DNA from: Natronomonas gomsonensis
Lineage (GTDB): Archaea; Halobacteriota; Halobacteria; Halobacteriales; Haloarculaceae
DNA: 64,000 nt
NCBI RefSeq assembly: GCF_024300825.1
Contig: NZ_CP101323.1
Location: 2,852,001-2,916,000 of the forward strand
Direction: 5' to 3'
Positions 1 through 44,449 of the stretch are shown here, one piece after another. How positions within the stretch are numbered: the first letter of the stretch is position 1; each line of letters starts with the position of its first letter. Position numbers and translations under genes: made by a program. The notes beneath the pieces were generated by a model. It did not search any database. It was not told where the DNA came from and saw only the letters and a program-made list of their open reading frames with translations.

Positions 1-1168
1 TCCGGGGCAGGTCAAGCAGGTTCTCACCGACGTAGTTAAGCACCATCTCGTTATTCACCGGCGCGATGCGGAGGAACCGTGTCCAGTCTCTGAGCGCGGC
101 CAGCGGGTAGTCGTGACTGAACGCGTTTCCACCGAGCGCCTGTACGGCCGCGTCCATGGCCTTGTCTGCGGCCTCCGAGGCGGCGTACTTCGCGACGTTC
201 GCGGCAGCCGCGGCGTTTCGCTGTCCCGCTTCGTGTGCAGCTGCGGCCGTCTGGAGCGTGAGCGCGGCCTGTTCGACAGCAACCTTCGCGCCGGCTAGCG
301 GGTGCTGAACGCCTTGATAACTGCCGGTCGGGGCATCGAATATCTCTCGATCGTTCGCGTAGTCGGCGCCCTTTTCTATGACGAACCGACCGAGCCCGAC
401 CGCGAGCGCCGCGGTGACGACGCGTTCGGGGTTGAGTGCCGAGAACACATGCGAAAACCCGGCGTCTTCCCTCCCAATGCGGTTGTTGACCGGCACCCGG
501 ACATCGTCGAAGTGGACCGTGTACTGGCCGCTGGGTTCGGGGATGGACACGTCGAGCGGAGATGTCTCGATGCCATCTGCGTCCGTATCCACCACTAGCA
601 ACGTGCCACCGTGGTAGGGATTTTCGTTGGCGACGTCCTCGTAGGGGGTGGTACGGGTCACGAGTTGGATGTAATCAGCGCCGGCCGCGTCGGTGATGTA
701 GGTCTTCTCGCCGTTCACGACGTACTCGTCGCCATCGCGTGTGGCGGAGGTTCGTATCCGGGAGGCGTTCGTCCCGCTGTGGGGCTCTGTGATGGCGAAC
801 GCAAATCGAAGGTCACCGCTGGCGATTCCCGGCAGAAACCGATTTTTTAGGTTGTCGCTCCCGTACTCAATGATGGGGAGCGGCGCCATCGTCGTCGTCG
901 ACAGGAACGCGAGCAACGGGACGCCGTGGGCGGCGAACGTCTCTATGAGCGTCGCGAGCGCTGGGATTCCCATCTCTTCGCCGCCATACTTCTCGGGAAC
1001 GGCGATACCGAGGAACCCGAGCTCGCCGAGTTCCGCCCAGAGTTCGTCGACGAAGTGTCCCTCCCTACAGCAGGTCTGCCAGTAGTCGTGGTCGTATTCT
1101 GCGGTGAGATCGGCCACTGCGTCGGCTATCATCGACTGTTCGTCGGTCAGGGTGACGAGTGTGTTCAT
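1..1168 (-). CDS. acyl-CoA dehydrogenase, 3' end cut by window edge
   Basis: Flavin-dependent acyl-CoA dehydrogenase that would introduce an alpha,beta double bond into an acyl-CoA. The frame is open for 389 codons from ATG 1168 to the left edge, so probably only the last few residues are missing; the visible end (VLNYVGENLLDLPR) matches the C-terminus of the paralogue at 28422-29621. Visible family features are an N-terminal helical part with GIAVPEKYGG, the FAD-loop motif FAITEPHSGTNAS, and a C-terminal domain with QALGGNAFSHDYPL. Where many family members have the catalytic Glu in an EGT motif this protein reads APVNNEM, so the base is not obvious. It lies 17 bp downstream of a CoA ligase on the same strand, so ligase then dehydrogenase is likely one transcript. 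Confidence 0.9.
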   Translation of the reverse strand, partial: MNTLVTLTDEQSMIADAVADLTAEYDHDYWQTCCREGHFVDELWAELGELGFLGIAVPEKYGGEEMGIPALATLIETFAAHGVPLLAFLSTTTMAPLPIIEYGSDNLKNRFLPGIASGDLRFAFAITEPHSGTNASRIRTSATRDGDEYVVNGEKTYITDAAGADYIQLVTRTTPYEDVANENPYHGGTLLVVDTDADGIETSPLDVSIPEPSGQYTVHFDDVRVPVNNRIGREDAGFSHVFSALNPERVVTAALAVGLGRFVIEKGADYANDREIFDAPTGSYQGVQHPLAGAKVAVEQAALTLQTAAAAHEAGQRNAAAAANVAKYAASEAADKAMDAAVQALGGNAFSHDYPLAALRDWTRFLRIAPVNNEMVLNYVGENLLDLPR

Positions 1169-1185
1169 AGGAGCGTTTAATCAAT

Positions 1186-2865
1186 TCACTCCGAGATGAG
1201 CACGTCTTCGTACTGATCGCGGAGCGTCTTCTTGTCGTATTTGCCGACAGATGTCTGAGGTATCTCGTCTACGACAATCATCTCATCTGGAATCCACCAC
1301 TTCTCGATCTCGCCGCTCTCGACGTACTGCATGAGGTGATTCTCTAGATCGACATTCGCCTTGTCAACGCTATCTTCGAGCACTACGATGGCGAGGGGTC
1401 GTTCGACCCACTCCTCGTGGTTGACAGCGACAGTCACGGCGTCACTGATGTCTGGGTGTTCGGCAATGTGGTCTTCGAGGACTGGTGATGGTATCCATTC
1501 GCCACCGCTCTTAATCACATCTTTGATGCGATCGAGTACCTCCACGTTCCCCCACTCGTCGATGCGGACGAGATCACCCATCCTGAGATATCCGTCTTCG
1601 GTCGTCGCTTCCTCAGTCTTCTCGGGCATTCCCCAGTACCCGCCAGTTCCCCAGGGTGCTCGGTAAGCAATTTCGCCCTCGGACTTGCCGTCCCACGGGA
1701 GTGTCTCGCCGGTGTCCGGGTCGATTACCTTCGCCTCGGCACCGGTCACGAAGTAGCCGGCGACGTCGGCCTTGTACTGGAACAGTTCTTCTTCATCCAT
1801 CGCCAACTCTCTGTCGCGGAGGTGATTCTGGATGTTGTAACAGAACTGAGGACCGGCCTCGGTGTATCCGTACACCTGCGAGGTATCTGCGCCGAGGTCC
1901 TCGAGGTCACGTAGTAGGGGCGTCGGCGGCGACTGTCCGCCGAACACGATTTCGAGGCCGTCAAGGGTGATGTCCTCTCCGTCCGTGCGGCGGTCCTCAA
2001 CAATTTCGACGACTCGCTTGAATAGCGTTGCGACACCCGCTGTGAACGTCACATCCTCTTCGAGCAGAAGGTTCGCTAGATTATCTGGGTAGCCCGGCCC
2101 CGGAAGGACGAGCTGCGACCCGGCCGTAGGCGCAAGCCCCCAAAGAAGCCACCCGAGGTGGAACATCGGTGGTACCATCAACTGACTGTCTTGCGGGCCG
2201 ACCCCTTTCGATGCGACCATACCAACCGTGTGGAGATAGACCATCCGATGTGTGTGGGCGACAGCCTTCGGTTTGCCGGTGGTGCCCGATGTGAACATCA
2301 AAACAGCTGTAGACTGCTCGTCGACCTCCGGGAAGTCGTAGGACGGCTCCTTGTCGGCCATCAGCTCTCCGATAACATCAAGCTCCCCTAGCGCGGTGTT
2401 ACCGGGCTCGCCGCGGATGAGGTGGTACTCAAAGTCATAATCATCGCCAACGACTTCGGCGAAATCGTCAGTGAGCTCCGGAGCGACGAGTATCCGCTTG
2501 AACGGTGCGTTCTCGTCGACGTGGTCAAGACAGAACCGCTGGTGTTCCTTAGGGAGCTCCAAGTTGATTGTGAACGGCGCCGCGCCGAGACTGCTGATGG
2601 CGTACAGCAGTTCCATATACCGTGCCGTCGAATAGCCGTAGAGACCGACAACCTCTCCTGGTTCAATACCCATCTCTTCTAAGACGTGTCCCATCCGTTG
2701 GACGTTGTTCCACATCTCCGCGTACGTCGTGACTTCGTTGTCGTCCGCGTACGCGGTGATGACCTCTTGTTCTCGGTGTCCGCGTGCCGCGTGCTCGAGC
2801 AGCATTCGCGTGTTCAATTCAATGTCCGCAGTCGACCCTTGTAGCCCCTCAACTTTTTTTGTCAT
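1186..2865 (-). CDS. AMP-forming acyl-CoA ligase
   Basis: Adenylate-forming enzyme that activates a carboxylic acid to its CoA thioester with ATP. About 559 residues. The P-loop-like motif FTSGTTGKPKAVAHTH is near residue 200, the hinge motif DRIKDVIKSGGEWIPSP near residue 435, and the catalytic Lys of the C-terminal domain is in TSVGKYDKKTLRDQY near the end. Start ATG 2865 is preferred over an ATG five codons upstream because it aligns with the start of its close paralogue at 22687-24372 and lies about 20-25 bp from a TATA box. Sequence alone does not fix the acid used; in this context a medium-chain, alicyclic or dicarboxylic acid is plausible. It leads a two-gene operon with the dehydrogenase at 1-1168. 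Confidence 0.92.
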   Translation of the reverse strand: MTKKVEGLQGSTADIELNTRMLLEHAARGHREQEVITAYADDNEVTTYAEMWNNVQRMGHVLEEMGIEPGEVVGLYGYSTARYMELLYAISSLGAAPFTINLELPKEHQRFCLDHVDENAPFKRILVAPELTDDFAEVVGDDYDFEYHLIRGEPGNTALGELDVIGELMADKEPSYDFPEVDEQSTAVLMFTSGTTGKPKAVAHTHRMVYLHTVGMVASKGVGPQDSQLMVPPMFHLGWLLWGLAPTAGSQLVLPGPGYPDNLANLLLEEDVTFTAGVATLFKRVVEIVEDRRTDGEDITLDGLEIVFGGQSPPTPLLRDLEDLGADTSQVYGYTEAGPQFCYNIQNHLRDRELAMDEEELFQYKADVAGYFVTGAEAKVIDPDTGETLPWDGKSEGEIAYRAPWGTGGYWGMPEKTEEATTEDGYLRMGDLVRIDEWGNVEVLDRIKDVIKSGGEWIPSPVLEDHIAEHPDISDAVTVAVNHEEWVERPLAIVVLEDSVDKANVDLENHLMQYVESGEIEKWWIPDEMIVVDEIPQTSVGKYDKKTLRDQYEDVLISE

Positions 2866-2878
2866 AGGTTGCCATTCC

Positions 2879-2891
2879 ACACTTATATCAC
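2879..2891 (-). promoter_or_regulatory. TATA box for the ligase-dehydrogenase operon
   Basis: The minus strand reads GGTGATATAAGTG, an archaeal TATA-type box roughly 20-25 bp ahead of ATG 2865. It implies a leaderless or nearly leaderless transcript. Confidence 0.5.
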
Positions 2892-3049
2892 CGATTGTAA
2901 TAAATCGTTCCCCACAGTTCGTCGTTTACGTTATCTGTTTTGGAGATCCGACGTACTGACCTGTTCAATATGCTTCTACCTGCTTCAGTTGGAACTGGAC
3001 ATGTCACTGATGGGTGACCATCGGACGGACAAGGACACATCCCGGGTGG

Positions 3050-3063
3050 TTACAAAAGCTTAT
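3050..3063 (+). promoter_or_regulatory. TATA-like box for the crotonase gene
   Basis: TTACAAAAGCTTAT lies about 30 bp upstream of ATG 3091. Together with the opposite-facing box at 2879-2891 it makes this a divergent promoter region of about 225 bp. Confidence 0.45.
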
Positions 3064-3090
3064 CATCGTACCCCAAGGATTACCGTGTGC

Positions 3091-3918
3091 ATGTCTAGCG
3101 AAGAGACGTACTCGACGATTCAGACGTATCGTAACGACGAGGACGACCGCATCTTCCACGTCGATCTCGACCGGCCAGATGACAATAATACGGTCACAGC
3201 GGAGTTGCTCTCAGAACTCGGTCATGCCGTCGAGTCTGCCGATGCTGCCGACGATGTGGATGCTATCGTTCTCGGAACCACGAGCGAGAACTTCTGTGCC
3301 GGCGGTAGTCTGGACGAACTCGGTGATATCGACCGTGAGGGGGGAAACCGGTTCCTCAGCGGCTACGTCGATACTGTCCACCTCTTGCGTGAAACCGGAA
3401 AGCCGACCGTCGCCGCCGTGAAGGGAACCTGCGTTGCGGGGGGCAATGAGCTCGTGATGGGGTCAGACATAATTGTCGCCGGCGAGTCGGCGAGATTCGG
3501 CCAGCCAGAGGCGCGTGTCGGCTCGACGGCCGCTGGTGGTGGCGTCCAGATGATGCCGCTCATCGTCGGCGAACAGCGCGCCAAGGACCTCCTTCTTACT
3601 GCCCGGCTTCTCTCGGCCGAAGAGGCTGAGGACTGGGGGCTCATCAACCGCGTCGTTGACGACGACGAGGTAGACGAACGTTCTATTGAAATAGCCCAAG
3701 ACATAATCGACAACAATAGTCCACAGGCCTACCGAGTCATCAAGGCGATGCTCAAACAGTGGAATAATATGGCGATGATGAACCGTGAGGTCGCCCGCGA
3801 ACTGACGGCGGCAGTCTGGGATTCCGAGGAGTTTTCCGACCGCGCTAACGCCTTCATGTCCGGTGAGGACCTTGACTCGCGCCAGTTCTCTGGAACGCTC
3901 GACAAGGGGGACGAATAA
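3091..3918 (+). CDS. crotonase-family enzyme, candidate BadI/Oah-type ring-opening hydrolase
   Basis: Enoyl-CoA hydratase/isomerase fold, 275 residues. ATG 3091 is chosen over the far upstream ATG at 2869 because family similarity begins just after it and a TATA-like box lies 30 bp before it. ENFCAGGSLDEL and GTCVAGGNELVMGSD give the CoA-binding and oxyanion-hole regions. Both Glu positions of ordinary hydratases seem present (GGNEL and GQPEA). However, the GSTAAGG-x-VQMMPLIVGEQRAKDL stretch resembles the MenB/BadI/Oah branch, where ring-forming or ring-cleaving enzymes carry GS-x-x-GG followed by xPLxxG. I infer it may hydrolyse a 2-ketocycloalkane-carboxyl-CoA, but a plain hydratase remains possible. 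It converges on the SDR at 3926-4705 with a gap of 7 bp. Confidence 0.75.
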   Translation: MSSEETYSTIQTYRNDEDDRIFHVDLDRPDDNNTVTAELLSELGHAVESADAADDVDAIVLGTTSENFCAGGSLDELGDIDREGGNRFLSGYVDTVHLLRETGKPTVAAVKGTCVAGGNELVMGSDIIVAGESARFGQPEARVGSTAAGGGVQMMPLIVGEQRAKDLLLTARLLSAEEAEDWGLINRVVDDDEVDERSIEIAQDIIDNNSPQAYRVIKAMLKQWNNMAMMNREVARELTAAVWDSEEFSDRANAFMSGEDLDSRQFSGTLDKGDE

Positions 3919-3925
3919 ACGTACT

Positions 3926-4705
3926 TCACATCGCCGCGAGACCACCGTCGACGTTCAGTACTTCACCGGTGATCCACTCGCTCCGCGGTTCCGCGAGCGT
4001 TACGATACCCTCAGCGACCGCCGACGGTGGCACAGCGCCCTCCTTCGGCGTTTGTTCCTCCAGTTCTGCCATTGCCGCCGCGGTCTCCTCGGAGATCGAC
4101 GTGTAGTAGTTGTCCTTGTCGAGCAGACCGGGGTTGACCGCGTTGACGGTGATGCCGTTGTTCGCTTGCTCGACCGCAAGATATCGGACTAGACACTCTA
4201 GCGCTGCCTTCGCACTTCCGAGGAGGCCGTGTAGTGGCATGAACGTGTGACTGTCGTTGCCCGAAACGGCGATGATACGGCCCCCCTCGTCCATACGTTC
4301 GATTGAGTGCTGGGCCGCCAGCAGGAACCCTGTAACACCGAGGTCGTAGGTCAGTGAGATATCCTGGGGCGTCACCTCGGTGAGCGGTTTGAACGCCGTC
4401 ACGGCTGCATTGTGGACGAACACATCAACACGGCCGTACTCCTCGTCGACGCGCTCAAACAGGTGATCAATAGCGTCCGGGTCTGAGGCGTCTGCCTGGA
4501 CGGCTATGGCGTCTGCCCTTTCGTGTGAATCCTTAACGGCTGCCACCGTCTTGGCCGCCGCATCTTCGTTGCTTCGGTAGTTGACAACGACACGCGTACC
4601 TCGCGCACCGAATGCTTCAGCAGTAGCGCGACCGAGCCCGCGACTGGCTCCAGTGATTACCACGACATCTCCTTGCAGGTCCGCTGACTGACTTGATGTC
4701 ATCAT
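3926..4705 (-). CDS. SDR-family oxidoreductase, FabL-like, lacking the catalytic Tyr
   Basis: Short-chain dehydrogenase/reductase, 259 residues, Rossmann fold. The N-terminal cofactor motif TGASRGLGRA and the NAA motif (VHNAAV) are intact. The active-site segment reads SGNDSHTFMPLHGLLGSAK: the residue four before the Lys, normally Tyr, is Leu, and the residue seven before it, Tyr in FabL-type enoyl reductases, is His. The following ALECLVRYLAVE segment also resembles FabL. It therefore may be an enoyl-thioester reductase variant or a poorly active protein rather than an ordinary 3-ketoacyl reductase. The gene is single, on the strand opposite its neighbours, and its start region faces the amidohydrolase gene. 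Confidence 0.85.
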   Translation of the reverse strand: MMTSSQSADLQGDVVVITGASRGLGRATAEAFGARGTRVVVNYRSNEDAAAKTVAAVKDSHERADAIAVQADASDPDAIDHLFERVDEEYGRVDVFVHNAAVTAFKPLTEVTPQDISLTYDLGVTGFLLAAQHSIERMDEGGRIIAVSGNDSHTFMPLHGLLGSAKAALECLVRYLAVEQANNGITVNAVNPGLLDKDNYYTSISEETAAAMAELEEQTPKEGAVPPSAVAEGIVTLAEPRSEWITGEVLNVDGGLAAM

Positions 4706-4812
4706 TCCCCCGTGTCACCCGCTTGCTAATTAGTGTTTCCCGCCTCTAGAAATGTAGAAAATATAATATTAAAGTCAAGATTTAGTACAGTGACCGTACA
4801 CAGCTTGAATGC

Positions 4813-5709
4813 ATGGATATCGAAGCCATCGACACGATGTGTCGGGCGTTCTACGCCGAACCTGCACTCGCAAAACCACTGTTTGAGGTTCGAGAATTCA
4901 AAACACTTGCCGAATCGACGTTCGCGGGTGTGATGGCCCACCACGACATTCCTGAAGACGAAGCGTGGCGCGTCTTCGAAGTGCTGGGTAACGACTCGCT
5001 TGAAGAAACAGTTGACGAGATGGATGAGGTAGGCGTCGAAAAGGTGTTTATGGATCAGCTCGTTCAGTGGTCCCGTGATGCGAAGAAGACGCTTACAATG
5101 CTTAGCGTCGAGGAACTGGCCGAGATGGTGGACCGCTCGGACGGCCGTGTTGTCCCCGGCGTCGGGTACGACCCACACCGCATCCCCGAAAGCCTCGAAC
5201 GCGTTGAGCGTGCCGTCGAAGATCACGATTTCAAGTACGTCTGGTTCCACCCGATGACGTACGGACTGCGCCCAACAGACGAAAAGTGCTATCCGCTGTA
5301 CGCGAAATGTAACGAACTCGATGTCCCGGTCTGTTTCCAGACTGGGCACTCCGCGGAACCTCTCCCGAGTGAACCTGGCCACCCGATGTACGCTGACGAG
5401 GTCGCCATGGACTTCCCGGACCTGACACTTGTGCTTACACATGCCGGGTGGCCGTGGACGAGCGAGTGGTGCTCAATGCTCTGGCGACACCCAAATGTCT
5501 ACGGGAACATCGGTGCCTACTATCCTTCCTTCCTTCCGGACAGGCAGGTCGAGTTCATTGATAGTAGCCGCATCCGCAACAAGGTCATGTGGGCAACCAA
5601 CGGACTCGGATTCGAGCGCTGCAAGGAGGAGTTCCTTGATCTCCCGATTCGGGACAAAACTAAGCGAGCCGTACTTCGGGAAAACGCAATGAACGTCTTC
5701 GATATCTGA
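4813..5709 (+). CDS. amidohydrolase-2-family (TIM-barrel) protein with degenerate metal site
   Basis: Protein of 298 residues from the amidohydrolase-related superfamily, which includes zinc decarboxylases and hydrolases acting on cyclic carboxylates. Recognisable strands carry WFHPMTYG (near residue 147), CFQTGHS (near 178) and LTHAGWPW (near 214), which in the family supply metal or substrate ligands. Two expected features are absent: the N-terminal HxH (here IDTMCRAF) and the terminal Asp (here MWATNGLGF instead of a GSD-type motif). The upstream DNA is very A/T rich (AAATATAATATTA, 4758-4770) and likely holds the promoter. It is followed at 37 bp by a MaoC hydratase with a strong Shine-Dalgarno site, then by a crotonase, suggesting a shared role in CoA-ester degradation. 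Confidence 0.75.
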   Translation: MDIEAIDTMCRAFYAEPALAKPLFEVREFKTLAESTFAGVMAHHDIPEDEAWRVFEVLGNDSLEETVDEMDEVGVEKVFMDQLVQWSRDAKKTLTMLSVEELAEMVDRSDGRVVPGVGYDPHRIPESLERVERAVEDHDFKYVWFHPMTYGLRPTDEKCYPLYAKCNELDVPVCFQTGHSAEPLPSEPGHPMYADEVAMDFPDLTLVLTHAGWPWTSEWCSMLWRHPNVYGNIGAYYPSFLPDRQVEFIDSSRIRNKVMWATNGLGFERCKEEFLDLPIRDKTKRAVLRENAMNVFDI

Positions 5710-5734
5710 TCGATGCTGTCCATAGTTCAATTAC

Positions 5735-5740
5735 GGAGGT
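5735..5740 (+). promoter_or_regulatory. strong Shine-Dalgarno site for the MaoC gene
   Basis: GGAGGT, six bases before ATG 5747. This fixes the start and suggests translation from an internal position of a polycistronic message. Confidence 0.6.
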
Positions 5741-5746
5741 CAAACT

Positions 5747-6205
5747 ATGAATAACGACCGGACCGACTTGCGCTACTTCGAGGATATCGAGGTCGGGACG
5801 GTTCACGAACTTGGAACGTATATGGTGAACAAAAAAGATATCATCGAATTCGCCGAACAGTGGGACCCCCAGTACTTCCACGTCGATGCGGAGGCTGCGG
5901 CGGATTCTATGTTTGGGGAACTCGTTGCAAGCGGTATTCACACGCTCGCTATCCTTCAACGTATCGCCTCACTAAACTACTACGCCGAGACTGATGTTCA
6001 CGGCGGTCCTGGAATTGAGGACATCCAGTTCACTACGCCGGTCCGCCCGGGTGATACGCTCTCGGTGATAATGACAGTTGAGTCGAAACGTGACCTTGAG
6101 AGTAGTCCTAATCGCGGACTCGTTCACTTCGGGTTCACGGTCACGAACCAAAACGATGTGACTGTATTGACCGCGACAGTACTGAGTCTTATCGGGAAGC
6201 GTTGA
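5747..6205 (+). CDS. MaoC-like (R)-specific enoyl-CoA hydratase
   Basis: Single hot-dog domain of 152 residues, the usual size for a MaoC dehydratase that adds water to an enoyl-CoA. The family's central helix region is seen in EFAEQWDPQYFHVDAEAA, followed by FGELVASGIHTLAI, which carries the Asp/His catalytic dyad region, and by the substrate-loop strand VRPGDTLSVIMTVE. It is preceded by an amidohydrolase-fold gene and followed at 57 bp by a crotonase, so the cluster has two stereochemically different hydratases side by side. The substrate is not determined. Confidence 0.88.
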   Translation: MNNDRTDLRYFEDIEVGTVHELGTYMVNKKDIIEFAEQWDPQYFHVDAEAAADSMFGELVASGIHTLAILQRIASLNYYAETDVHGGPGIEDIQFTTPVRPGDTLSVIMTVESKRDLESSPNRGLVHFGFTVTNQNDVTVLTATVLSLIGKR

Positions 6206-6262
6206 TAAACCGTACCTGCGGGGCAGAGTGTTTTTGTAGATGGGTGCGGTTTACCCTCTTGC

Positions 6263-7063
6263 ATGACCGAGATGAGTTTCGAGACTATCCAGTGGTCGTT
6301 TGATGAGGTGACTGGTGTCGGGAAGATTGTCTTGGACCGGCCGGGAGCGATGAACTCGTTGTCGGCACAACTAAAATCAGATATAGGTGCGGGCTTCGAC
6401 GCATTTGCAGAGGTGGATGATGAGGCTGACGGTGTGGCAGTTCGCGCAGTCGTTGTCGAGGGTGCCGGGGAGAAGGCCTTCTGCGCCGGCGCGGACATCA
6501 ACGAATTTCGCGAGGTCACTCCGGGTGTATTTGAGATGGTTGAAGCCATTGAAGCACCGGAACAGTGCCCGGCCCCGGTGGTCGCGAAGATTGATGGATA
6601 CTGTCTCGGTGGCGGGCTCGAACTCGCACTCGCCTGTGATTTCCGCATCGCTAGCAAGCGTTCGACCGTTGGACAGCCGGAGGTCGACCTCGGAATTATC
6701 CCCGGTGGTGGCGGTACTCAACGTCTTGCTGCGCTCGTTGGCGCGTCCCGCGCAAAATTCCTTTGTATGTCTGGGACACATATTGAGGCCGACACAGCGG
6801 CTGAAGACGGTATCCTTGATGCAGTCCACCCTGCTGACGAACTCGACACAGCGGTTGATTCGTTTCTCAACGAGATTGTTGAGAAGCCACCGCTTGCGGT
6901 TCGAGCAATTAAGGACGTCGTGAATGTCTCACAGGAGGTTGGCATGCAGGAAGGTCGTATGTACGAGAAGCGAGCAACGGATGGCCTCAAGAACACGGCA
7001 GACCACGCAGAAAGCGTTGAGGCGTTTGCTGAGGACCGCGAGCCGGAATGGCAAGGAAAGTAA
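6263..7063 (+). CDS. enoyl-CoA hydratase (crotonase)
   Basis: Crotonase-family hydratase, 266 residues. KAFCAGADINEF and DGYCLGGGLELALACDFR form the oxyanion hole. The two catalytic Glu residues of true hydratases are visible in GGGLELAL and GQPEVDLGIIPGGGG, and the C-terminal helix contains PEWQGK. In this neighbourhood it could hydrate cyclohex-1-ene-1-carboxyl-CoA (a BadK-like step) or act in beta-oxidation of the opened product. A second in-frame ATG lies three codons downstream. It sits between a MaoC hydratase and an MFS carrier on the same strand. Confidence 0.9.
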   Translation: MTEMSFETIQWSFDEVTGVGKIVLDRPGAMNSLSAQLKSDIGAGFDAFAEVDDEADGVAVRAVVVEGAGEKAFCAGADINEFREVTPGVFEMVEAIEAPEQCPAPVVAKIDGYCLGGGLELALACDFRIASKRSTVGQPEVDLGIIPGGGGTQRLAALVGASRAKFLCMSGTHIEADTAAEDGILDAVHPADELDTAVDSFLNEIVEKPPLAVRAIKDVVNVSQEVGMQEGRMYEKRATDGLKNTADHAESVEAFAEDREPEWQGK

Positions 7064-7183
7064 CCACTATGCGAGAGAATTGGACGACAGAATTTACCGC
7101 ACGAGTGGCGGCCCGATGGGTGAAGAGGACAGGACAATCTCAAGAACGGAAAAGATGATGAGACGACATGTAGGGGAGTAACC

Positions 7184-8452
7184 GTGACGGCATCGCTTCG
7201 GCAGTGGCTGTCGAATCTGAACATCTACTATGGTTGGTTCGTCGTGGTGGCGTGTTTTCTGAGCGCGATGGCTGCGTTCGGCACGATCTACTCTTTTAGT
7301 GTCTTTTTCGGCCACATCGCCACCGCGTTTGACCAGTCGAGCAAGAGTACATCACTTATTTTTTCGCTCCAGTCAGTTGTGACCTATACGGGCGCGGCGG
7401 TTGTTGGGCTATACGTCGACCGTATCGGCGTCCGGCGGCTGCTCGTGATGGCGATGGTCCTCGTCGGAGGTGGCCTCTATGGTGCGAGCCAACTGCGCAG
7501 TCTTTGGGGCGTCACCCTCGCCTACGGGCTGGTCGCGGCTGCAGGGTTCGCCATTATCATCACTATCGCCATGGCGACGACACCACGCTGGTTCGGTCGC
7601 CGTCGCGGATTAGCCAATGGCATCGCTACCTCCGGGACCGGAGTTGGACTGCTGCTCGCGCCGCCGTTCGCCAGCGGCCTCATCGACCTATTTGGCTGGC
7701 GAACCGCCTATCTCGGGTTCACCGTCGTTGTCGTTGCCATCCTCGGTCTAGCGATGGTGCTGCTCGCTGATGGACCGGAGACCATTGATATCGAAACTGG
7801 CGATGAATTCTTGGATATGGATAATACGGTAGCGACAGCAGTAAGTAGCGAGCATTCTCCACTGCATAATATCGCTGTTACGGTTCGGCACCCGTCGTTT
7901 CTGCTAGTCTTTTTCGCTGTCCTGCTGGTGTACATGCCCGTATATGTCGTGCTCGTCTACCTCGTCGAGTTCGCGGCCAGTATTGGTGCCGGCCGGACGA
8001 CGGGCGTCCTTGCAGTAAGCGTCGTTGGAGTGACCAGTATTGTCGGTCGCAACGCGGCCGGTGTCGCTTCAGACTGGTTCGGTCGCAGCTACCTCGCGGC
8101 CGCCTGTGCGCTCGTCATCGGAGCGTCAAGCATCAGTCTCACGATTTTTAACTCCCCAGTCGCGGTACTCGCTCTGGCAGTCGTCTTCGGCGTCGGGTAC
8201 GGTGGAATCGGGTCACTTCTCTCACCGCTGTTGGCGGAACTGTTTGGTACAGGCGATCTCTATGCGTTGTTCGGCTTGACCAGTATTTCGTTCGCCATGG
8301 CCGGGTCGATTGGACCATACCTGTCGGGGGTGGGCTACGACGTGTTTGGGACCTTCCAGCCAGTATTCGTGACGGCCGGCGTTGTGGCTCTTCTGGCAGT
8401 CGGTATCTTCGTGGGAACGGCCATTGTCGTCGTCCCCGCCAGCGAAGGGTGA
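7184..8452 (+). CDS. MFS transporter
   Basis: Major facilitator of 422 residues with about 12 hydrophobic helices, resembling the oxalate/formate and monocarboxylate carrier group. The start is GTG 7184, supported by GGGGAG at 7173-7178. The loop between helices 2 and 3 has GLYVDRIGVRRLL, a typical MFS G-x-x-x-D-R-x-G-x-R-R motif. A hydrophilic stretch near residues 195-225 (ETGDEFLDMDN) separates the two six-helix halves. The position directly after the hydratase genes suggests it imports the acid substrate or exports an intermediate. It is an alternative route to the ABC importer encoded at 11.7-21.8 kb. Confidence 0.88.
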   Translation: MTASLRQWLSNLNIYYGWFVVVACFLSAMAAFGTIYSFSVFFGHIATAFDQSSKSTSLIFSLQSVVTYTGAAVVGLYVDRIGVRRLLVMAMVLVGGGLYGASQLRSLWGVTLAYGLVAAAGFAIIITIAMATTPRWFGRRRGLANGIATSGTGVGLLLAPPFASGLIDLFGWRTAYLGFTVVVVAILGLAMVLLADGPETIDIETGDEFLDMDNTVATAVSSEHSPLHNIAVTVRHPSFLLVFFAVLLVYMPVYVVLVYLVEFAASIGAGRTTGVLAVSVVGVTSIVGRNAAGVASDWFGRSYLAAACALVIGASSISLTIFNSPVAVLALAVVFGVGYGGIGSLLSPLLAELFGTGDLYALFGLTSISFAMAGSIGPYLSGVGYDVFGTFQPVFVTAGVVALLAVGIFVGTAIVVVPASEG

Positions 8453-8503
8453 CAGGGGAAAACCCCTGTTCCCGGTACGCTTAATAGCCACAGCACACAT
8501 GCC

Positions 8504-9649
8504 ATGCACATGGATTTCGGATTCACCGAAACACAGCAGATGGTTCGGTCACAGCTCCACGAATTCGTCACCGAACGCATTATCGGTGAGAATTTTGGAT
8601 GGGATGACCGAGACTTCCCGACCGAGGTCTACGACGATATGGCCGACCTTGGGCTGCTCGGTCTTCATCTTCCCGAGGAGGCCGGCGGCGAAGAGTTTGA
8701 TCCCGTCACGTCCGGCGTCGTCTACGAGGTGCTCGGCCGCGGTGACGTCGGCTTGGCGATGCTCGCACTCTCTGAGAACCTCGTCAACAAACTTCTCTGG
8801 GAGTACGGGGACAAATACCACCGTGATGTGGCAACGAGCGTCCGAGCGGGTGAGGAACATATCTGCTTCGCCTTGACCGAACCCGGGCAAGGTTCGGACG
8901 CACAAAATATCGAAACCCGAGCCAAACCAACCGACGATGGCTGGTTGCTCTCCGGAGAAAAAACGGCTATCACGGGTGCGACGCTGGCCGACCACTGTTT
9001 CGTTATCGCTCGCCAGACCGACCCCGAAGCTATCAGGGCGTACCTCATGCCGCTGGACGCCGACGGCGTTGACGTCCAGCCCTACGGCGGTATGGGTTGT
9101 GAAGTGAGTGGCTGGGGGCAGATATTCATGGATAACGTCGAGATACCTGCCGAGGCGCGGGTTGCCGACGAGAATGCGTTCAAGATGGCAATGCGGACGT
9201 TCGACCAGTCGCGAGCGTGGATTGCACTCTATGCGCTGGGTGCCGCCCAGCAGACCCTCGACGAGACGGAGTCGTACCTCACAGAGCGTGAGGCGATGGG
9301 CAAACCGCTGGCCGGCTACGAAGGCCCGCAGTTCGAGTTTGCCGAGTGCCAGACACGGGTTGATGCCGCACGCCTGAAAGCCTACCAAACCCTCTGGAAG
9401 GCCCGCGAAGAGAAAGCCCACACTCGCGACGCCGCGATGGTAAAGTGGTACGGCCCGCAGGTCGCTGTTGACACAGTCCGTGCGTGTCTCGTTCTGCATG
9501 GCCACTACGGCTACTCGGATGACTTCGGCCTCGGGAAGCGCCTTCAGGACGTGCTCGGCCAGCAGATAGCAGACGGGACGCCACACGTCCAGAAGATAAT
9601 CGTTGCACGGGAGACGTTCGGTCGTGAGTACCTGCCCTACGACCGGTAA
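8504..9649 (+). CDS. acyl-CoA dehydrogenase with Asp at the usual catalytic-Glu site
   Basis: Flavoprotein dehydrogenase of 381 residues. FTETQQMVRSQLHEFV opens the N-terminal helical domain, LTEPGQGSDAQN is the FAD/substrate motif, and a C-terminal Arg/Gln-rich helix ends in PHVQKIIVARETFG. At the position where many family members have the catalytic Glu in YEGT, this sequence has ADGT, a conservative Glu-to-Asp change. ATG 8504 or ATG 8510 may be used; a GCTTAATAGCC box at 8478-8488 would place transcription start almost on them. It could be the ring-desaturating enzyme of the proposed alicyclic pathway. It converges on the flavoenzyme gene at 9693-10676. Confidence 0.9.
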   Translation: MHMDFGFTETQQMVRSQLHEFVTERIIGENFGWDDRDFPTEVYDDMADLGLLGLHLPEEAGGEEFDPVTSGVVYEVLGRGDVGLAMLALSENLVNKLLWEYGDKYHRDVATSVRAGEEHICFALTEPGQGSDAQNIETRAKPTDDGWLLSGEKTAITGATLADHCFVIARQTDPEAIRAYLMPLDADGVDVQPYGGMGCEVSGWGQIFMDNVEIPAEARVADENAFKMAMRTFDQSRAWIALYALGAAQQTLDETESYLTEREAMGKPLAGYEGPQFEFAECQTRVDAARLKAYQTLWKAREEKAHTRDAAMVKWYGPQVAVDTVRACLVLHGHYGYSDDFGLGKRLQDVLGQQIADGTPHVQKIIVARETFGREYLPYDR

Positions 9650-9692
9650 GCCGACTAGTTGTTGGCCAGGCCGATCTTGCTCCTGTGTCGTT

Positions 9693-10676
9693 TCAGACAG
9701 CGTCTATTATCGCCTCGATAGTTGAGTTCGGGGCCGAATACGGCGGAAAGAGCACGACGGTGTCACAGCCGGCGTTCTCATAGCGCTGGATGTCTTCCCG
9801 GAACTGTTCGGGAGTGCCGTAGATCGCCAATTCGTGGAGCATTTCGTCGGAGATTGCATCTGCGGCCCCCTCGCGGTCGCCCTCACGCCAGCGGTCATGG
9901 GCTTCGTTTCCCTCCTCGCCGAATCCGAATTTCTCGGCGAGTCGATTGTATCCCATCGCCATCTCTTGGGCGAGGAAGGACCGTGCGTGATTGGCGGCGA
10001 CTTCTGGGTCGTCGTCAACGGCTGCTCCGACCATGGGGGCCACAGTTATATCATCGGGATCGCGGTTTGCTTTGCGCGCGCCCTCGGCGATGGCCCGTTG
10101 TGCGCTTTTGAGTTCGCTGTGGGGTATGAACGCAGGGAGCCAGCCGTCAGCGAACTCACCGGTCAGTCGACAGTTCGTCTCGCCCATCGCCGCGTTGTAG
10201 ATGGGGATTCGGTCACGCTCAATGTCGAAGCCGATACTGTAGGGACCGACGTCGAAAATATCGCCCTCGTACTCGATGGCATCGCTGTGGAACGTCTGGC
10301 GAAGAATTTCGATGGTTTCGCGCATCCGCCTGAGCGGCCGGTCAAACGAGAGACCGTGGAAGTCCTCCACGACAGATTCAGAGCTCACGCCGAGCCCGAG
10401 GATGGTCCGGCCGTTGGACAGGGAATCGAGGGTCCCCCCACTCATCGCAAGAAGCGCTGGCGTCCGTGAGAAGACGTTCGCAATTCCGGACCCGAGCTTG
10501 ATGTCATCGGTCTCGCGCGCAACGGCACTCAACGTCATGAGGCCGTTCCCCCACGACGCCTCGCCCTTCCATACGGAGTCGAACCCGGCGACCTCAGCAC
10601 GCTTTGCGAAGTGTATAGTCTTCTCGACAGTCACACCAAACGCCTCGTCTGGCAACATCAATCCTAACTCGGCCAT
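9693..10676 (-). CDS. luciferase-like, probably F420-dependent oxidoreductase
   Basis: LLM-family TIM-barrel protein of about 327 residues, related to methylenetetrahydromethanopterin reductase and F420-dependent dehydrogenases. AEVAGFDSVWKGEASWG, IKLGSGIANVFSRTPALLAMS and LSNGRTILGLGVSSES are typical F420-binding segments. The C-terminus has YGTPEQFREDIQRYENAGCDTVVLFPP, the usual final beta-alpha unit. ATG 10676 (MAELG) is preferred over the ATG five codons upstream. Haloarchaea make F420, so a hydride-transfer role on an acyl-CoA or aldehyde is plausible, but the substrate is unknown. A second LLM gene is at 40404-41393. Confidence 0.82.
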   Translation of the reverse strand: MAELGLMLPDEAFGVTVEKTIHFAKRAEVAGFDSVWKGEASWGNGLMTLSAVARETDDIKLGSGIANVFSRTPALLAMSGGTLDSLSNGRTILGLGVSSESVVEDFHGLSFDRPLRRMRETIEILRQTFHSDAIEYEGDIFDVGPYSIGFDIERDRIPIYNAAMGETNCRLTGEFADGWLPAFIPHSELKSAQRAIAEGARKANRDPDDITVAPMVGAAVDDDPEVAANHARSFLAQEMAMGYNRLAEKFGFGEEGNEAHDRWREGDREGAADAISDEMLHELAIYGTPEQFREDIQRYENAGCDTVVLFPPYSAPNSTIEAIIDAV

Positions 10677-10834
10677 GTGGTCAGATACCACGAGCCGACA
10701 ATAAAACTATTCCGGGAGTCGCCGCGACTGACACATAGGGTTATCGTTGTCATTCATAGATACCGTTTCATCGGGACCGGATGCCGTGGCCAGCCGTGGG
10801 TCTTCAGACTACTGGCTGGCTATGAGAATCCCGA

Positions 10835-11608
10835 TCAGTCGTTCATCGTGAGACCCCCGGAGACGCTCAGTACCTGACCGGTGACGAATGAGGCGTCATC
10901 GGATACTAAGAAGGCAACGGCACCAGCAATGTCCTCGGGTTCGGCCATCCGGCCGAGAGGGATCTGGCTGGCCATGCTGCCAAGTATCTTCTCGCCGAGA
11001 TCGCTGTCCTCGCGCATCTCGTCAACCAGTGGCGTCTCTGTCGGTCCCGGTGCGACGACGTTGACGCGCACGCCGTCGCGTGCGAGTTCACGCGCTAGCG
11101 TTTTTGAGAACGATATGACGCCGCCCTTCGCACCAGAGTAGACTGCCTCACCGGTACTGCCGGCACGGCCGGCGTCGGAGGCGATGTTGACGATGCGGCC
11201 GCCATTGTCTTCGGTCATGACCTCGCTGACGGCGCGTGCACAGTTAATCTGACCGCGGAAGTTGATGTCGATGATGCGGTCCCAGACGTCGGGATCTTGT
11301 TCGAGGAACCACTGCATCTCGTCCCAGCCGGCGTTGTTCACGAGGATGTCGACACCGCCAGCCTCGTCGATGACGTCGGACACCATCTCACGAACGTTTT
11401 TGAGATTCGTGACGTCGGCTACAGCCGAGAAGGCGCTCCCGCCGTCTTCCTTGATGAGTGACACCGTCTCCGCGGCGGCGTCCTCGTCTACATCGTTCAC
11501 CGCGATTGTCGCCCCATCGCTCGCGAGTCGCCGCGCAATTGCTCGACCGATACCACTTCCACTCCCCGTAATAATTGCAACCTGACCGTTGATATTTGCC
11601 ATTGCCAT
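10835..11608 (-). CDS. SDR dehydrogenase resembling BadH (2-hydroxycyclohexanecarboxyl-CoA dehydrogenase)
   Basis: NAD-type short-chain dehydrogenase of 257 residues with a full active site: TGSGSGIGRAIARR (cofactor), VDILVNNAGWD, IVNIASDAGRAGS (Ser), VYSGAKGGVISFSKTLARE (Tyr-x-x-x-Lys). From memory, the combination NNAGWD, NIASDA-x-R-x-GS-x-GEAVY and the C-terminal GQVLSVSGGLTMN matches Rhodopseudomonas BadH unusually closely, much beyond general SDR similarity. BadH oxidises 2-hydroxycyclohexanecarboxyl-CoA to the 2-keto ester, the substrate for ring opening. ATG 11608 or 11602 are both possible starts. The gene is monocistronic and divergent from the ABC ATPase gene at 11750. Confidence 0.85.
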   Translation of the reverse strand: MAMANINGQVAIITGSGSGIGRAIARRLASDGATIAVNDVDEDAAAETVSLIKEDGGSAFSAVADVTNLKNVREMVSDVIDEAGGVDILVNNAGWDEMQWFLEQDPDVWDRIIDINFRGQINCARAVSEVMTEDNGGRIVNIASDAGRAGSTGEAVYSGAKGGVISFSKTLARELARDGVRVNVVAPGPTETPLVDEMREDSDLGEKILGSMASQIPLGRMAEPEDIAGAVAFLVSDDASFVTGQVLSVSGGLTMND

Positions 11609-11749
11609 CAAGTGGGTCGGCTATCGACGACATAATTGTTCGGGTCAGTAGAACGTCATAGCGACTAGAACACTCGAGACTGCTCTTTCCTCGGTGGGGA
11701 ACCAGCCACAAAGAACTAAGTAGCCTCCCGAGATACCCATGTAGAGAGT

Positions 11750-26696: not shown

Positions 26697-28229
26697 TCAG
26701 GCGCGGTACTTGTAACGCTGCTTCTTGCCGGTGGCGGTGCGTGCGAGTTCGTCGACAAGTTCGTAGACGCGGGGGCGCTTGTAGTCAGCCAGTCCCGTAT
26801 GTTCCTTACAGAACGTCTCTAGTTCGCCCTTATCAACAGTGCCATCTGTCGCCACGTAAGCCTTGACAACCTGTCCCCACTCCTCATCCGACTCACCAAC
26901 GACAGCGGCGGCCTCAACAGCCTCGTGCTGCTCTAGGGTCTCTTCGACCTCGATGGGCGAGACTAGTTCGCCGCCGCTCAGTATCATGTCGTCGGCACGT
27001 CCTGTGATAGTGAGGAAGCCGTCCACGCTCCTCACACCAAGGTCCCCGGTGTAATACCAGCCCCTTCGGAGCGACTCGTCCGTTGCTTCTTGATTCCCGA
27101 AGTAGTAGTCGAGTACAGCCCCACCAGAGACAATAACCTCACCCTCCTCACCCGCTGGCACTACCTCGTGGGGCTGGACATCTCGTTCTTGATCAAACTC
27201 GACGACTCGCACCTGTTTATCAGGGCTAGCTCGGCCGACTGTGCCGGCTTGCTCAGGTAGGTTCTCCGACCCGAGCGTTGAGTCGAGCAACGTCTCGGTC
27301 GTGCCGTAGCCGTTATAGATATTCGGCGTCAGATTCTCCAGCAGGTTGTTGGCGAGTTGTTCAGAGAGGGGCGATCCCATGCACATCATACACTCGAGCG
27401 ACGAGAAGTCACGCTGGTCGACATCGTCCATGTTCGCGATTCGCTGGGCGACGGTCGGCACACCCACGATGTGGGTAATACCCCGGTCCTCAATGAGAGC
27501 GGCCACCGGTTCGGGCTCCCAGTCCCTCGTGACGAGGATGGTCCCGCCGGCACAGATGGTCGGGTGGATGGTGAGATCGATTCCGCCAGCGTGGAACCAC
27601 GGCGACACCTGCAGTGCGACGCTGTCCTGCGAGAGTCCGAGATCGAGCATCCCCTCTTGTGCGCGGTTGAACGCTGTCTTCCCGGAGAAGGTGACGCCCT
27701 TCGGTGCGCCCGTGGTCCCGCTTGTGTAGAGGATGTAGGCGACATCGCCAGGATTCATGGGGATCTCCGGAGGTGTCTTGGCTGTCCCCGAGGAACGGAC
27801 GACGTCGTAGGATTCCCCGTCGGCTGGCTCGTCACCGACGCAGATTTTGTCCGGTGTCCGTACCGCCTCTTCGATGGCCCCTTCGACTTTCTCACCCACG
27901 TCAGCGTCGTACACGACGAACTCGGGGTTTACATCGTCGAAAATGTACTTGAAGTTGTCCTGTGCCAGCATGTAGTTCGCCGGGATGGGGACGGCACCGA
28001 CCTTGTAGATGGCGTACAACATCACCGGGAACTCTAGGGTATTGTACAGCACCATAGCGACCCGGTCGCCCTTCCGGAGGCCACGGTCCCGGAGCGCGTT
28101 CGCGAGTTTGTTAACCTCGCTATCGAACTCCTCGTACGTGTACGTCTGGTTTGATGGCAGATCAACCAGCGCAGTCTCGTTTGGACGCCACTCGAGGTTT
28201 CGCTCCAGCAGTTGTCGATGAGATAACAT
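26697..28229 (-). CDS. AMP-forming acyl-CoA ligase (fatty-acid/aryl-acid type)
   Basis: Ligase of about 510 residues. YILYTSGTTGAPKGVTFSG (near 170), GYGTTETLLD, the hinge GRADDMILSGGELVSPIEV and the catalytic Lys in TATGKKQRYKYRA at the extreme C-terminus mark a complete enzyme. It is shorter and only distantly related to the other three ligases of the island, so it probably handles a different acid. A TATA-like ATATTTTTAACG on the minus strand (28252-28264) sits about 28 bp ahead of ATG 28229, which is why this start is preferred over ATG 28241. It is divergent from the dehydrogenase at 28422. Confidence 0.92.
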   Translation of the reverse strand: MLSHRQLLERNLEWRPNETALVDLPSNQTYTYEEFDSEVNKLANALRDRGLRKGDRVAMVLYNTLEFPVMLYAIYKVGAVPIPANYMLAQDNFKYIFDDVNPEFVVYDADVGEKVEGAIEEAVRTPDKICVGDEPADGESYDVVRSSGTAKTPPEIPMNPGDVAYILYTSGTTGAPKGVTFSGKTAFNRAQEGMLDLGLSQDSVALQVSPWFHAGGIDLTIHPTICAGGTILVTRDWEPEPVAALIEDRGITHIVGVPTVAQRIANMDDVDQRDFSSLECMMCMGSPLSEQLANNLLENLTPNIYNGYGTTETLLDSTLGSENLPEQAGTVGRASPDKQVRVVEFDQERDVQPHEVVPAGEEGEVIVSGGAVLDYYFGNQEATDESLRRGWYYTGDLGVRSVDGFLTITGRADDMILSGGELVSPIEVEETLEQHEAVEAAAVVGESDEEWGQVVKAYVATDGTVDKGELETFCKEHTGLADYKRPRVYELVDELARTATGKKQRYKYRA

Positions 28230-28421
28230 CGGTCCATACACTACTTCGAAACGTTAAAAATATTGACCTACATGTAATATAGCCTTTACGAACAGCGGGC
28301 ATATGATAGCCAAATACGTTCCGGTGGAATCCGGATTTTAATCCATTTTACATTCGGAACAAGCGGGTCTGAGTCGGGTTGACCGGAATCTATTTGCCGC
28401 GTGCATCCGTCGATAACAAGG

Positions 28422-42169: not shown

Positions 42170-42505
42170 ACCCTCAAGACCACCGCAATACTGAATACAC
42201 ATCAGCCGAAATCATCCCAATCGAACGCGAAACAGCAACGTCCAGAAACTCCTCGGCCGAATGGTCTCAGTCACAGAAGGCAAACTCGGACAACTCCGCA
42301 ACAGCGGAGAGTGGATCCTCGGCACTTTTCGAACAATTGCCGAAGTCAAAGATCTTTGAGAACGATATTACCTAATATGGCGTTCCCGAAATCCTTGATT
42401 GCAGCTGTGGGTTCTCAGGATAGATTTCAACCACGTAGTTATGGATATTAGCGTTTGTCACAATTGCAAAGAGTTAATATACGCATCGTACTTGTAAATT
42501 TGCAT
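42170..42505. other. intergenic region with a possible protein remnant
   Basis: One frame (about 42240-42359) reads KLLGRMVSVTEGKLGQLRN followed by WILGTFRTIAEVKDL and a stop. It looks like a real C-terminal fragment by composition, but I cannot name it and it has no start outside the insertion element. The last part holds the A/T-rich promoter of the SMC-related gene (GTTAATATACG at 42472-42482). Confidence 0.35.
42472..42482 (+). promoter_or_regulatory. TATA box of the SMC-related gene
   Basis: GTTAATATACG, about 28 bp before ATG 42506, favouring this start over ATG 42455, which lies upstream of the box. Confidence 0.5.
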
Positions 42506-44449
42506 ATGAATACAGAACAAGCCGAATCGAAAGGAGTGCTTTCCGTTAGTAATATCGGTGGAATCGACGAAACGGAACTCACAGTCGAATCGGGTATCAC
42601 TATACTCTCAGGCCGAAATGCCACCAACAGAACCTCGCTGCTACAATCGATTATGGCAGCCCTCGGCAGCGACAACGCCTCTATCAAGGCTGACGCCGAC
42701 GAAGCACACGTCGAACTCGACATCGGCGGAGAAACCTACACGCGGACGCTCCAGCGCCGAAACGGCACGATTCAAACCAGTGGTGACCCGTACCTCGAAG
42801 ACCCAACCGTCGCAGACCTGTTCGCGTTTCTCTTAGAATCTAACGAGACCCGGCGGGCCGTCGTCACTGACGCAAACCTCCGTGACATCATCATGCGACC
42901 GGTCGACACCGACGAAATCCAATCGGAAATCGACCAACTCCTCGACGAACGACGGCAACTCTCCGACGAACTCGACGAACTCGACTCGCTCAAAAATCGA
43001 CTGCCGTCGCTCGAAGAAGAACGGACCCAATTGCAAAACCAAATCGAGGAAAAACAAGCTGAACTCGAAGACCTCGAAGCCGACATCGAACAACGAGACG
43101 CCGACGTCGAACAGAGCCGCGACGACAAAGCCGAACTCGAAAACACGCTCGAAGACCTCCGCTCGAAACGCTCGGACCTCGAAAACGCCCGATACGAACT
43201 TGAAACCGAAGAAGACAGCCTCGAATCGCTTCAGACGGAGAAACAGGAAGTCGAAGACGACTACGAGAACCTCCCCGAGACGCCCGCCGGCGACCTCGAC
43301 GAAATCGAATCCAAAATCGACCAACTCCGCGCCGAAAAACAATCGCTCGAATCCGAAGTCAACGAACTCCAGAGCGTCATCGGATTCAACCAAGACCTGC
43401 TCGAAGACGCCGGCAACGGCACATTCGACGCGCTTCAAACCAGCGCCGAAAGCGAAGAGGTAACTGACGAACTGCTCCCCGACGACACCGTCACCTGTTG
43501 GACCTGCGGCAGCGATGTCGAGGCCGACCAAATCGAAACCACCGTCGAAAAACTCCAAGACCTCAGCAAAGACACTGTCAGCGACATCAACGACCTCGAC
43601 GCGGAACTCGATGACCTGAAAGAACAACGCCGTGAACGCCAAGACCAACAGCGAACGCGCGAACGCCTCGAGCGTCGCCAGCGAGAACTCGAATCCGAAA
43701 TCGAAGACACGGAAGACCGAATTGAAACCCTCGCCGAGCGCCGTGACGACCTCCGCGAGGAGATTAAGACCGTCGAAGAAGAGGTCGATGAGTTGGAAGA
43801 CGAATCCAACGAGGAACTACTCGAATTGCACAAAGAGGCCAACCAGCTTGAGTACGACCTCGGGTCGCTCGAGAGCGACCTCGAACGCGTCGAAGACAAC
43901 ATCTCGTCCATCGAAGAACGGCTCGACGAAGAAAGTGACCTCGAAAGTCGCCGCGAGGACATTAACGACGAAATCGAGGAGCTACGGACGAAGATCGAGC
44001 GCATCGAACAGCAAGCCATCGAGGGGTTCAACGAGCACATGGACACGGTGTTGGAGACGCTCGACTACCAGAACATCGCCCGAATCTGGCTCGAACGAAC
44101 GGAACAGGAAGTTCGCGAGGGCCGGCGAAAGGTGACCAAGAGCGTCTTCGAGTTGCACATCATCCGCCAAACCGAATCGGGGACGACCTACGAGGATTCG
44201 ATAACGAATCTCTCCGAGAGCGAGCGCGAAGTGACGGGGTTGATTTTCGCCCTCGCGGGCTATCTCGCCCACGAAGTGTACGAAACCGTCCCGTTCATGC
44301 TGCTCGATTCCCTGGAAGCAATTGATTCGGACCGCATCAGCCGCCTCGTCGACTACTTCGCCGGCTACAGCGACTTCCTCGTTGTTGCACTGCTGACCGA
44401 AGACGCACAAGCACTGGACGACAGCTATCACCGGATTACCGAGATCTAA
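42506..44449 (+). CDS. archaea-specific SMC/Rad50-related ATPase
   Basis: SMC-like protein of about 647 residues: an N-terminal ATP-binding half, a long coiled coil (about residues 100-560, Glu/Arg/Leu heptads) broken in the middle by a single CWTCGSD zinc-hook-like CxxC near residue 332, and a C-terminal half with the ABC signature LSESEREVTGLIFALAGYL and Walker B FMLLDSLEAID. The Walker A region reads SGRNATNRTSLLQ, with Arg in place of the usual Lys, which I recall as typical of this haloarchaeal family. Such proteins are thought to act in chromosome organisation or repair; the precise role is unknown. It converges with the small gene at 44460. Confidence 0.88.
   Translation: MNTEQAESKGVLSVSNIGGIDETELTVESGITILSGRNATNRTSLLQSIMAALGSDNASIKADADEAHVELDIGGETYTRTLQRRNGTIQTSGDPYLEDPTVADLFAFLLESNETRRAVVTDANLRDIIMRPVDTDEIQSEIDQLLDERRQLSDELDELDSLKNRLPSLEEERTQLQNQIEEKQAELEDLEADIEQRDADVEQSRDDKAELENTLEDLRSKRSDLENARYELETEEDSLESLQTEKQEVEDDYENLPETPAGDLDEIESKIDQLRAEKQSLESEVNELQSVIGFNQDLLEDAGNGTFDALQTSAESEEVTDELLPDDTVTCWTCGSDVEADQIETTVEKLQDLSKDTVSDINDLDAELDDLKEQRRERQDQQRTRERLERRQRELESEIEDTEDRIETLAERRDDLREEIKTVEEEVDELEDESNEELLELHKEANQLEYDLGSLESDLERVEDNISSIEERLDEESDLESRREDINDEIEELRTKIERIEQQAIEGFNEHMDTVLETLDYQNIARIWLERTEQEVREGRRKVTKSVFELHIIRQTESGTTYEDSITNLSESEREVTGLIFALAGYLAHEVYETVPFMLLDSLEAIDSDRISRLVDYFAGYSDFLVVALLTEDAQALDDSYHRITEI

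Follow-up and report, generated by a model that had tools for sequence, protein, structure and literature searches.

The first 11,611 nucleotides of a stretch of 64,000 nucleotides from the haloarchaeon Natronomonas gomsonensis (contig NZ_CP101323.1, positions 2,852,001 to 2,916,000; the whole stretch is hereafter called the window) carry eleven genes of coenzyme A (CoA) ester metabolism, which are named here by their start positions in the window. Some of them belong to a small module that resembles the bad-ali pathway, by which Rhodopseudomonas palustris, Aromatoleum and many other bacteria convert cyclohexanecarboxylate to pimeloyl-CoA (PMC9795900). A sequence-only reading of the window had interpreted seven of the genes, all of which are open frames where it had placed them, as a complete set for this pathway. 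Missing from its list were the short-chain dehydrogenase/reductase (SDR) 3926, the amidohydrolase-fold protein 4813, the MaoC-type hydratase 5747 and the luciferase-like monooxygenase (LLM) oxidoreductase 9693. Enzymes of these classes are common in the genome, which encodes more than 20 crotonases and upwards of 25 acyl-CoA dehydrogenases (ACADs), so that a list of step types is weak evidence by itself. What goes beyond chance is that particular members are linked in other genomes as well.

The module consists of amidohydrolase 4813, the AliB-like ACAD 8504, the BadH-like SDR 10835 and the CoA ligase 26697-28241, and it occurs in five out of 391 Halobacteria genomes. The amidohydrolase, too, is present in five of the 391; close relatives of ACAD 8504 (at least 62%) are confined to those same five, with one relative at 48% in the genome G125. 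Close homologs of SDR 10835 are found in 12 genomes, all five amidohydrolase genomes among them, and the hypergeometric probability of this co-occurrence is about 1e-8, uncorrected for kinship. A compact cluster, including the ligase and an IclR-type gene, exists in three genomes, i.e. Natrinema sp. DC36, Natribaculum breve and G058; the module genes of G036 lie together more loosely. The cluster on the DC36 plasmid (L010) is 88% identical to the window for the amidohydrolase, 76% for the ACAD, 69% for SDR 10835 and 71% for SDR 3926, and the ortholog of its ligase is 26697-28241 (62-63%), not ligase 1186. A scan of genome contigs for amidohydrolase 4813 returned Natribaculum breve only, which was also met in the plasmid search. 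SDR 3926 is intact in three of the five module genomes. On the Natribaculum breve plasmid its homolog is a broken remnant (L013, 6258-6825), and the other module genes are intact there. In Natrinema sp. DC36, a site-specific integrase and an IS6 transposase flank the compact module (L010, 14611-23190), which suggests horizontal movement.

Annotated bad-ali clusters on plasmids served as yardsticks; their gene names follow the annotations of the records and are not experimentally verified. The plasmid of Paraburkholderia aromaticivorans (L032) provided badH, badI, aliB and aliA as well as a downstream enoyl-CoA hydratase gene (the badK-position reference), and further clusters were taken from Salipiger abyssi (L012) and Marinobacter salarius (L011). 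SDRs linked to badI were added from Azoarcus and Cupriavidus, and FabG, MenB, PaaF, PaaG, CaiA and CaiD of Escherichia coli were included as well. The curated cut-offs are 431.2 bits for TIGR03206 (BadH), 575 bits for TIGR03207 (AliB) and 467.6 bits for TIGR03210 (BadI).

Against these yardsticks, two of the roles read from the sequence hold, although with scores under the curated cut-offs. The badH reference finds SDR 10835 first in the whole genome (49%), followed by a paralog at genome position 2826936, and TIGR03206 is the top model for this protein by 54 bits (302.8 bits). The trees place SDR 10835 in a haloarchaeal clade beside bacterial BadH (support 100/97, and 99/98 in a repeat that omitted two wrong-frame, long-branch rows, L038 and L043, of the first tree). 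Grouping with ordinary FabG, the first of two outcomes that had been named as speaking against the pathway, did not occur; the trees and the approximately unbiased (AU) test (p 0.016) reject it. The AliB-like call was likewise borne out: ACAD 8504 is the first match to the aliB reference in the genome (38%), has TIGR03207 as its top model (260.6 bits), groups with AliB in the tree (100/95), and has an HGH/FGH motif in common with it. Both proteins contain I-x-D-G-T, in which Asp replaces the usual catalytic Glu (E-G-T in typical family members). ACAD 1-1168 joins other beta-oxidation ACADs in the tree.

The three other role assignments do not hold. TIGR03210, searched over the whole genome, gave nothing near its cut-off and no BadI ortholog; the top match, at another locus, reaches 230 bits and is probably MenB. 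Crotonase 3091, to which the sequence-only reading had assigned the ring hydrolase role of BadI, scores 96.9 bits with this model (rank 13 of 22). Both hydratase glutamates (GGNE or GGQE, and GQPE) are retained in every readable member of its family, the Asp of BadI and MenB is absent from all of them, and the AU test rejects uniting the family with BadI in one clade (p 0.0014). Model rank, residues and this test all speak against crotonase 3091 as BadI, and that role is rejected. Grouping of crotonase 3091 with plain hydratases, the second outcome that had been named as speaking against the pathway, is borne out only in part: a common clade with BadI fails, but the family forms a deep separate branch. 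One small tree, built after a larger one was found to hold a wrong-frame row (L069), sets it nearest to BadI plus MenB (93/89) without firm support. The AliA reference has its top genome match at 2684461 and ranks ligase 26697 tenth and ligase 1186 14th, so that ligase 1186 as AliA is unsupported; the badK-position reference matches 2131075 best, not hydratase 6263, which had been proposed as BadK. The bad-ali gene order and operon are absent as well. That the genome has the whole bad-ali pathway for cyclohexanecarboxylate, with ring hydrolysis by crotonase 3091, is accordingly very improbable, even though the family repeatedly adjoins a BadH-like SDR, as badI does badH, and has a local VGS motif in common with BadI and MenB. 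Cyclohexanecarboxylate is only one possible substrate.

The adjacency to a BadH-like SDR is seen in the second copy of the crotonase within the genome (2826121/2826936) and again in G356, G125, G070, G047, Halococcus dombrowskii and Natrinema caseinilyticum; in G036 the two genes are a few kb apart. In Halorientalis marina, the orthologs of crotonase 3091 and SDR 3926 (78% and 78%) are adjacent and tail-to-tail as in the window, with a homolog (52%) of ligase 1186 nearby. Because of this recurrent adjacency to a BadH-like SDR and to the SDR 3926 ortholog, crotonase 3091 would be placed as the hydratase.

Amidohydrolase 4813 belongs to PF04909 (amidohydrolase_2) according to Pfam and is 66-88% conserved among the module copies. 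All five haloarchaeal copies have lost the metal ligands: they have no N-terminal HxH, and Gln and Asn take the places of the strand-5 His and the strand-8 Asp, respectively. The usual metal-activated water should hence be unavailable to this protein. An invariant His is found in the motif THxGW/SHTGW. The only other PF04909 protein of the genome has HxH and Asp, and its gene lies directly beside the second pair of a 3091-type crotonase and a 10835-type SDR; this trio (G000:C1:2825179-2827703; L103, 9179-11703) stands next to ATP-binding cassette (ABC) transporter and ligase genes. The same pair has a PF04909 gene nearby in G125 (canonical, Pfam-confirmed) and in G356 (probable, read from the N-terminal sequence), and a third arrangement places a canonical PF04909 gene of G125 3 kb from the ACAD with 48% identity. 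A sequence search of the PDB with 4813 returned only an uncharacterised Bordetella protein (3irs). The structure model, made from a two-sequence alignment, has a mean predicted local distance difference test score (pLDDT) of 54.

PF04909 includes decarboxylases, lactonases and a hydratase, and 4813 could be a metal-free enzyme of one of these kinds, and no ring C-C hydrolase, in the degradation of an aromatic or polar ring acid. Distant relatives (29-34%) in Variovorax, Comamonas, Paracoccus and Rhodococcus, which lie among ligase, ACAD, SDR, crotonase or hydrolase genes, would suit such a role. The decarboxylases of the family, however, are known to need the metal ligands that 4813 has lost, and no aromatic-ring reductase or oxygenase is seen in the cluster; we consider this explanation unlikely.

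A precedent for an amidohydrolase as candidate ring opener, which we count as support, comes from anaerobic bacteria. ThnN (N47_E41360), of the thn operon, has been named the best candidate, though untested, for the opening of ring I in anaerobic naphthalene degradation, and its relative BamU (Gmet_2147) is described as having no known function (PMC12016498); bamU is listed in a table of benzoate gene expression in Geobacter (PMC1924859). As in our cluster, a gene of the amidohydrolase superfamily whose function is unproven is found there among ACAD, crotonase and dehydrogenase genes, which in those systems serve alicyclic ring cleavage. Unlike those systems, the haloarchaeal cluster shows no aryl-CoA reductase genes, and the metal ligands are missing from its protein 4813.

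Based on these relationships, we tentatively favor a BadI-free, bad-ali-like haloarchaeal module that degrades a cyclic carboxylic acid via CoA esters, with 4813 as the candidate ring opener. According to this model, ligase 26697-28241 (or 1186) would make the CoA ester and ACAD 8504 would introduce a 1,2 double bond; water would be added by crotonase 3091, by 6263 or by MaoC 5747, and SDR 10835 would turn the 2-hydroxyl into a 2-oxo compound. Ring opening would then fall to the amidohydrolase-fold protein 4813, not to a crotonase, by cleavage of the C-C bond adjacent to the ketone. The more specific proposal, that archaea degrade an alicyclic acid by a BadI-free route whose ring opener is an amidohydrolase-fold protein that acts without metal on the CoA ester of the 2-oxo ring, is rather doubtful. 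Several observations weigh against the cyclic-acid module. The candidate ring opener is without HxH and the other metal ligands, and it is likened to ThnN and BamU by description, not by sequence comparison. The BadH and AliB scores (302.8 and 260.6 bits) are both under the curated cut-offs (431.2 and 575). No hydratase is constant across the module copies, and the module genes of the window are spread over 27 kb, interspersed with other acyl-CoA genes. Finally, the bacterial SDRs nearest to SDR 10835 by identity (51-53%, versus 47-50%) come from AtuA-containing, terpene-like clusters, which also carry an AliB-like ACAD.

This last point leads to a serious rival, which is nearly as likely as the cyclic-acid reading: the beta-oxidation of an open-chain (or side-chain) carboxylic acid of branched or terpenoid type, in which the BadH-like SDR and the AliB-like ACAD would serve alpha- or beta-branched acyl-CoAs in general and the amidohydrolase would have another role. 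Because two SDRs from AtuA-containing clusters fall within the BadH clade, membership in this clade leaves the substrate unfixed. Roseobacter-group plasmids combine the SDR at 51-53% and an ACAD at 38%, which has the same Asp motif, with AtuA, carboxylase and hydroxymethylglutaryl-CoA (HMG-CoA) lyase genes; a badKHI cluster without aliAB was suggested for monoterpenes (PMC9795900); and the CaiB, CitE, MmgE/PrpD, citrate-synthase-like and mesaconyl-CoA-hydratase-like genes of the surrounding island are typical of branched or dicarboxylic acids. Yet no AtuA, geranyl- or methylcrotonyl-type carboxylase or HMG-CoA lyase was recognised in the haloarchaeal cluster, and no amidohydrolase is annotated in the AtuA-cluster stretches examined. 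A search of the genome for AtuA found none, in a search without a positive control, as no control genome gave a match either. A branched or terpenoid substrate does not explain why the amidohydrolase and the AliB-like ACAD are strictly paired. On plasmids of Phaeobacter (L022) and Roseibium (L023), the AtuA clusters include a BadH-like SDR as well as an AliB-like ACAD that carries the Asp motif. None of three Phaeobacter crotonases tested groups with BadI, and these clusters may represent another BadI-free route for ring acids.

Clusters of the bad-ali type were surveyed across bacteria in 2022 (PMC9795900); our literature search found no paper on one in haloarchaea. The cyclic-acid module agrees with them in its AliB-like and BadH-like dehydrogenases, a CoA ligase and a hydratase-type crotonase, which are conserved or linked here, and badK is missing from the cluster, as is usual in bacteria too. 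It differs in the absence of BadI, in a ligase that is not the AliA match, in an IclR-type gene instead of badR, in the added amidohydrolase and second SDR, and in its archaeal host. A conserved haloarchaeal counterpart would extend the degradation of alicyclic acids (naphthenic-acid type) to extreme halophiles, and the module would offer a small, aerobic and culturable system for testing ring opening by an amidohydrolase-fold protein. If true, a metal-free ring opener would be an enzyme type without a proven example, and it would bear on what ThnN and BamU do when aromatic compounds are degraded anaerobically.

Table. Genes of CoA-ester metabolism at the locus; positions are those of the window.
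Feature	Position	Strand	Remarks
Acyl-CoA dehydrogenase	<1-1168	-	Off-window end at genome position 2,851,993 (L001 15993); ordinary type, not AliB-like
AMP-forming CoA ligase	1186-2880	-	Not the best AliA match
Crotonase	about 3091-3918	+	Haloarchaeal family often adjoining BadH-like SDR; keeps the hydratase residues; candidate for the BadK position as 2-enoyl-CoA hydratase
Second SDR (SDRb)	3926-4705	-	71-73% conserved in two other module copies
PF04909 amidohydrolase-fold protein	4813-5709	+	Without metal ligands; most conserved member of the module; candidate ring-opening hydrolase
MaoC-type hydratase	5747-6205	+	Alternative hydratase
Enoyl-CoA hydratase (crotonase)	6263-7063	+	Not the BadK match
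Major facilitator superfamily (MFS) carrier	7184-8452	+	
AliB-like acyl-CoA dehydrogenase	8504-9649	+	Asp at the catalytic-base position
F420-type LLM oxidoreductase	9693-10691	-	TIGR04024-like, under cut-off; not conserved in the module
BadH-like SDR (SDRa)	10835-11611	-	
CoA ligase	26697-28241	-	Outside the interval of the sequence-only reading; ortholog (62-65%) of the compact-module ligase; probable module ligase

The interval 1-11611 is part of a larger island of acyl-CoA genes. Upstream of the window there are more ligases, crotonases, MaoC, CitE-like and SDR genes and EtfAB (names read from sequence); downstream, to about 41 kb, the island holds ABC-transporter genes, CaiB-type transferases, HpcH/HpaI, MmgE/PrpD and more ligases, and CitE, citrate-synthase-like and mesaconyl-CoA-hydratase-like genes are also among its members. 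The LLM gene 9693-10691 sits between the AliB-like and the BadH-like gene, and LLM genes of low identity are found near the SDR in loci of Halococcus, Natrinema caseinilyticum and G047 as well. Downstream of the island, window positions 42455-44449 encode a protein that resembles archaea-specific proteins related to SMC (structural maintenance of chromosomes). Such proteins neighbour rdfA in haloarchaeal plasmid loci (e.g. L010, 25521-28209, and L026), and the one in the window may be a sign of DNA of mobile or plasmid origin.

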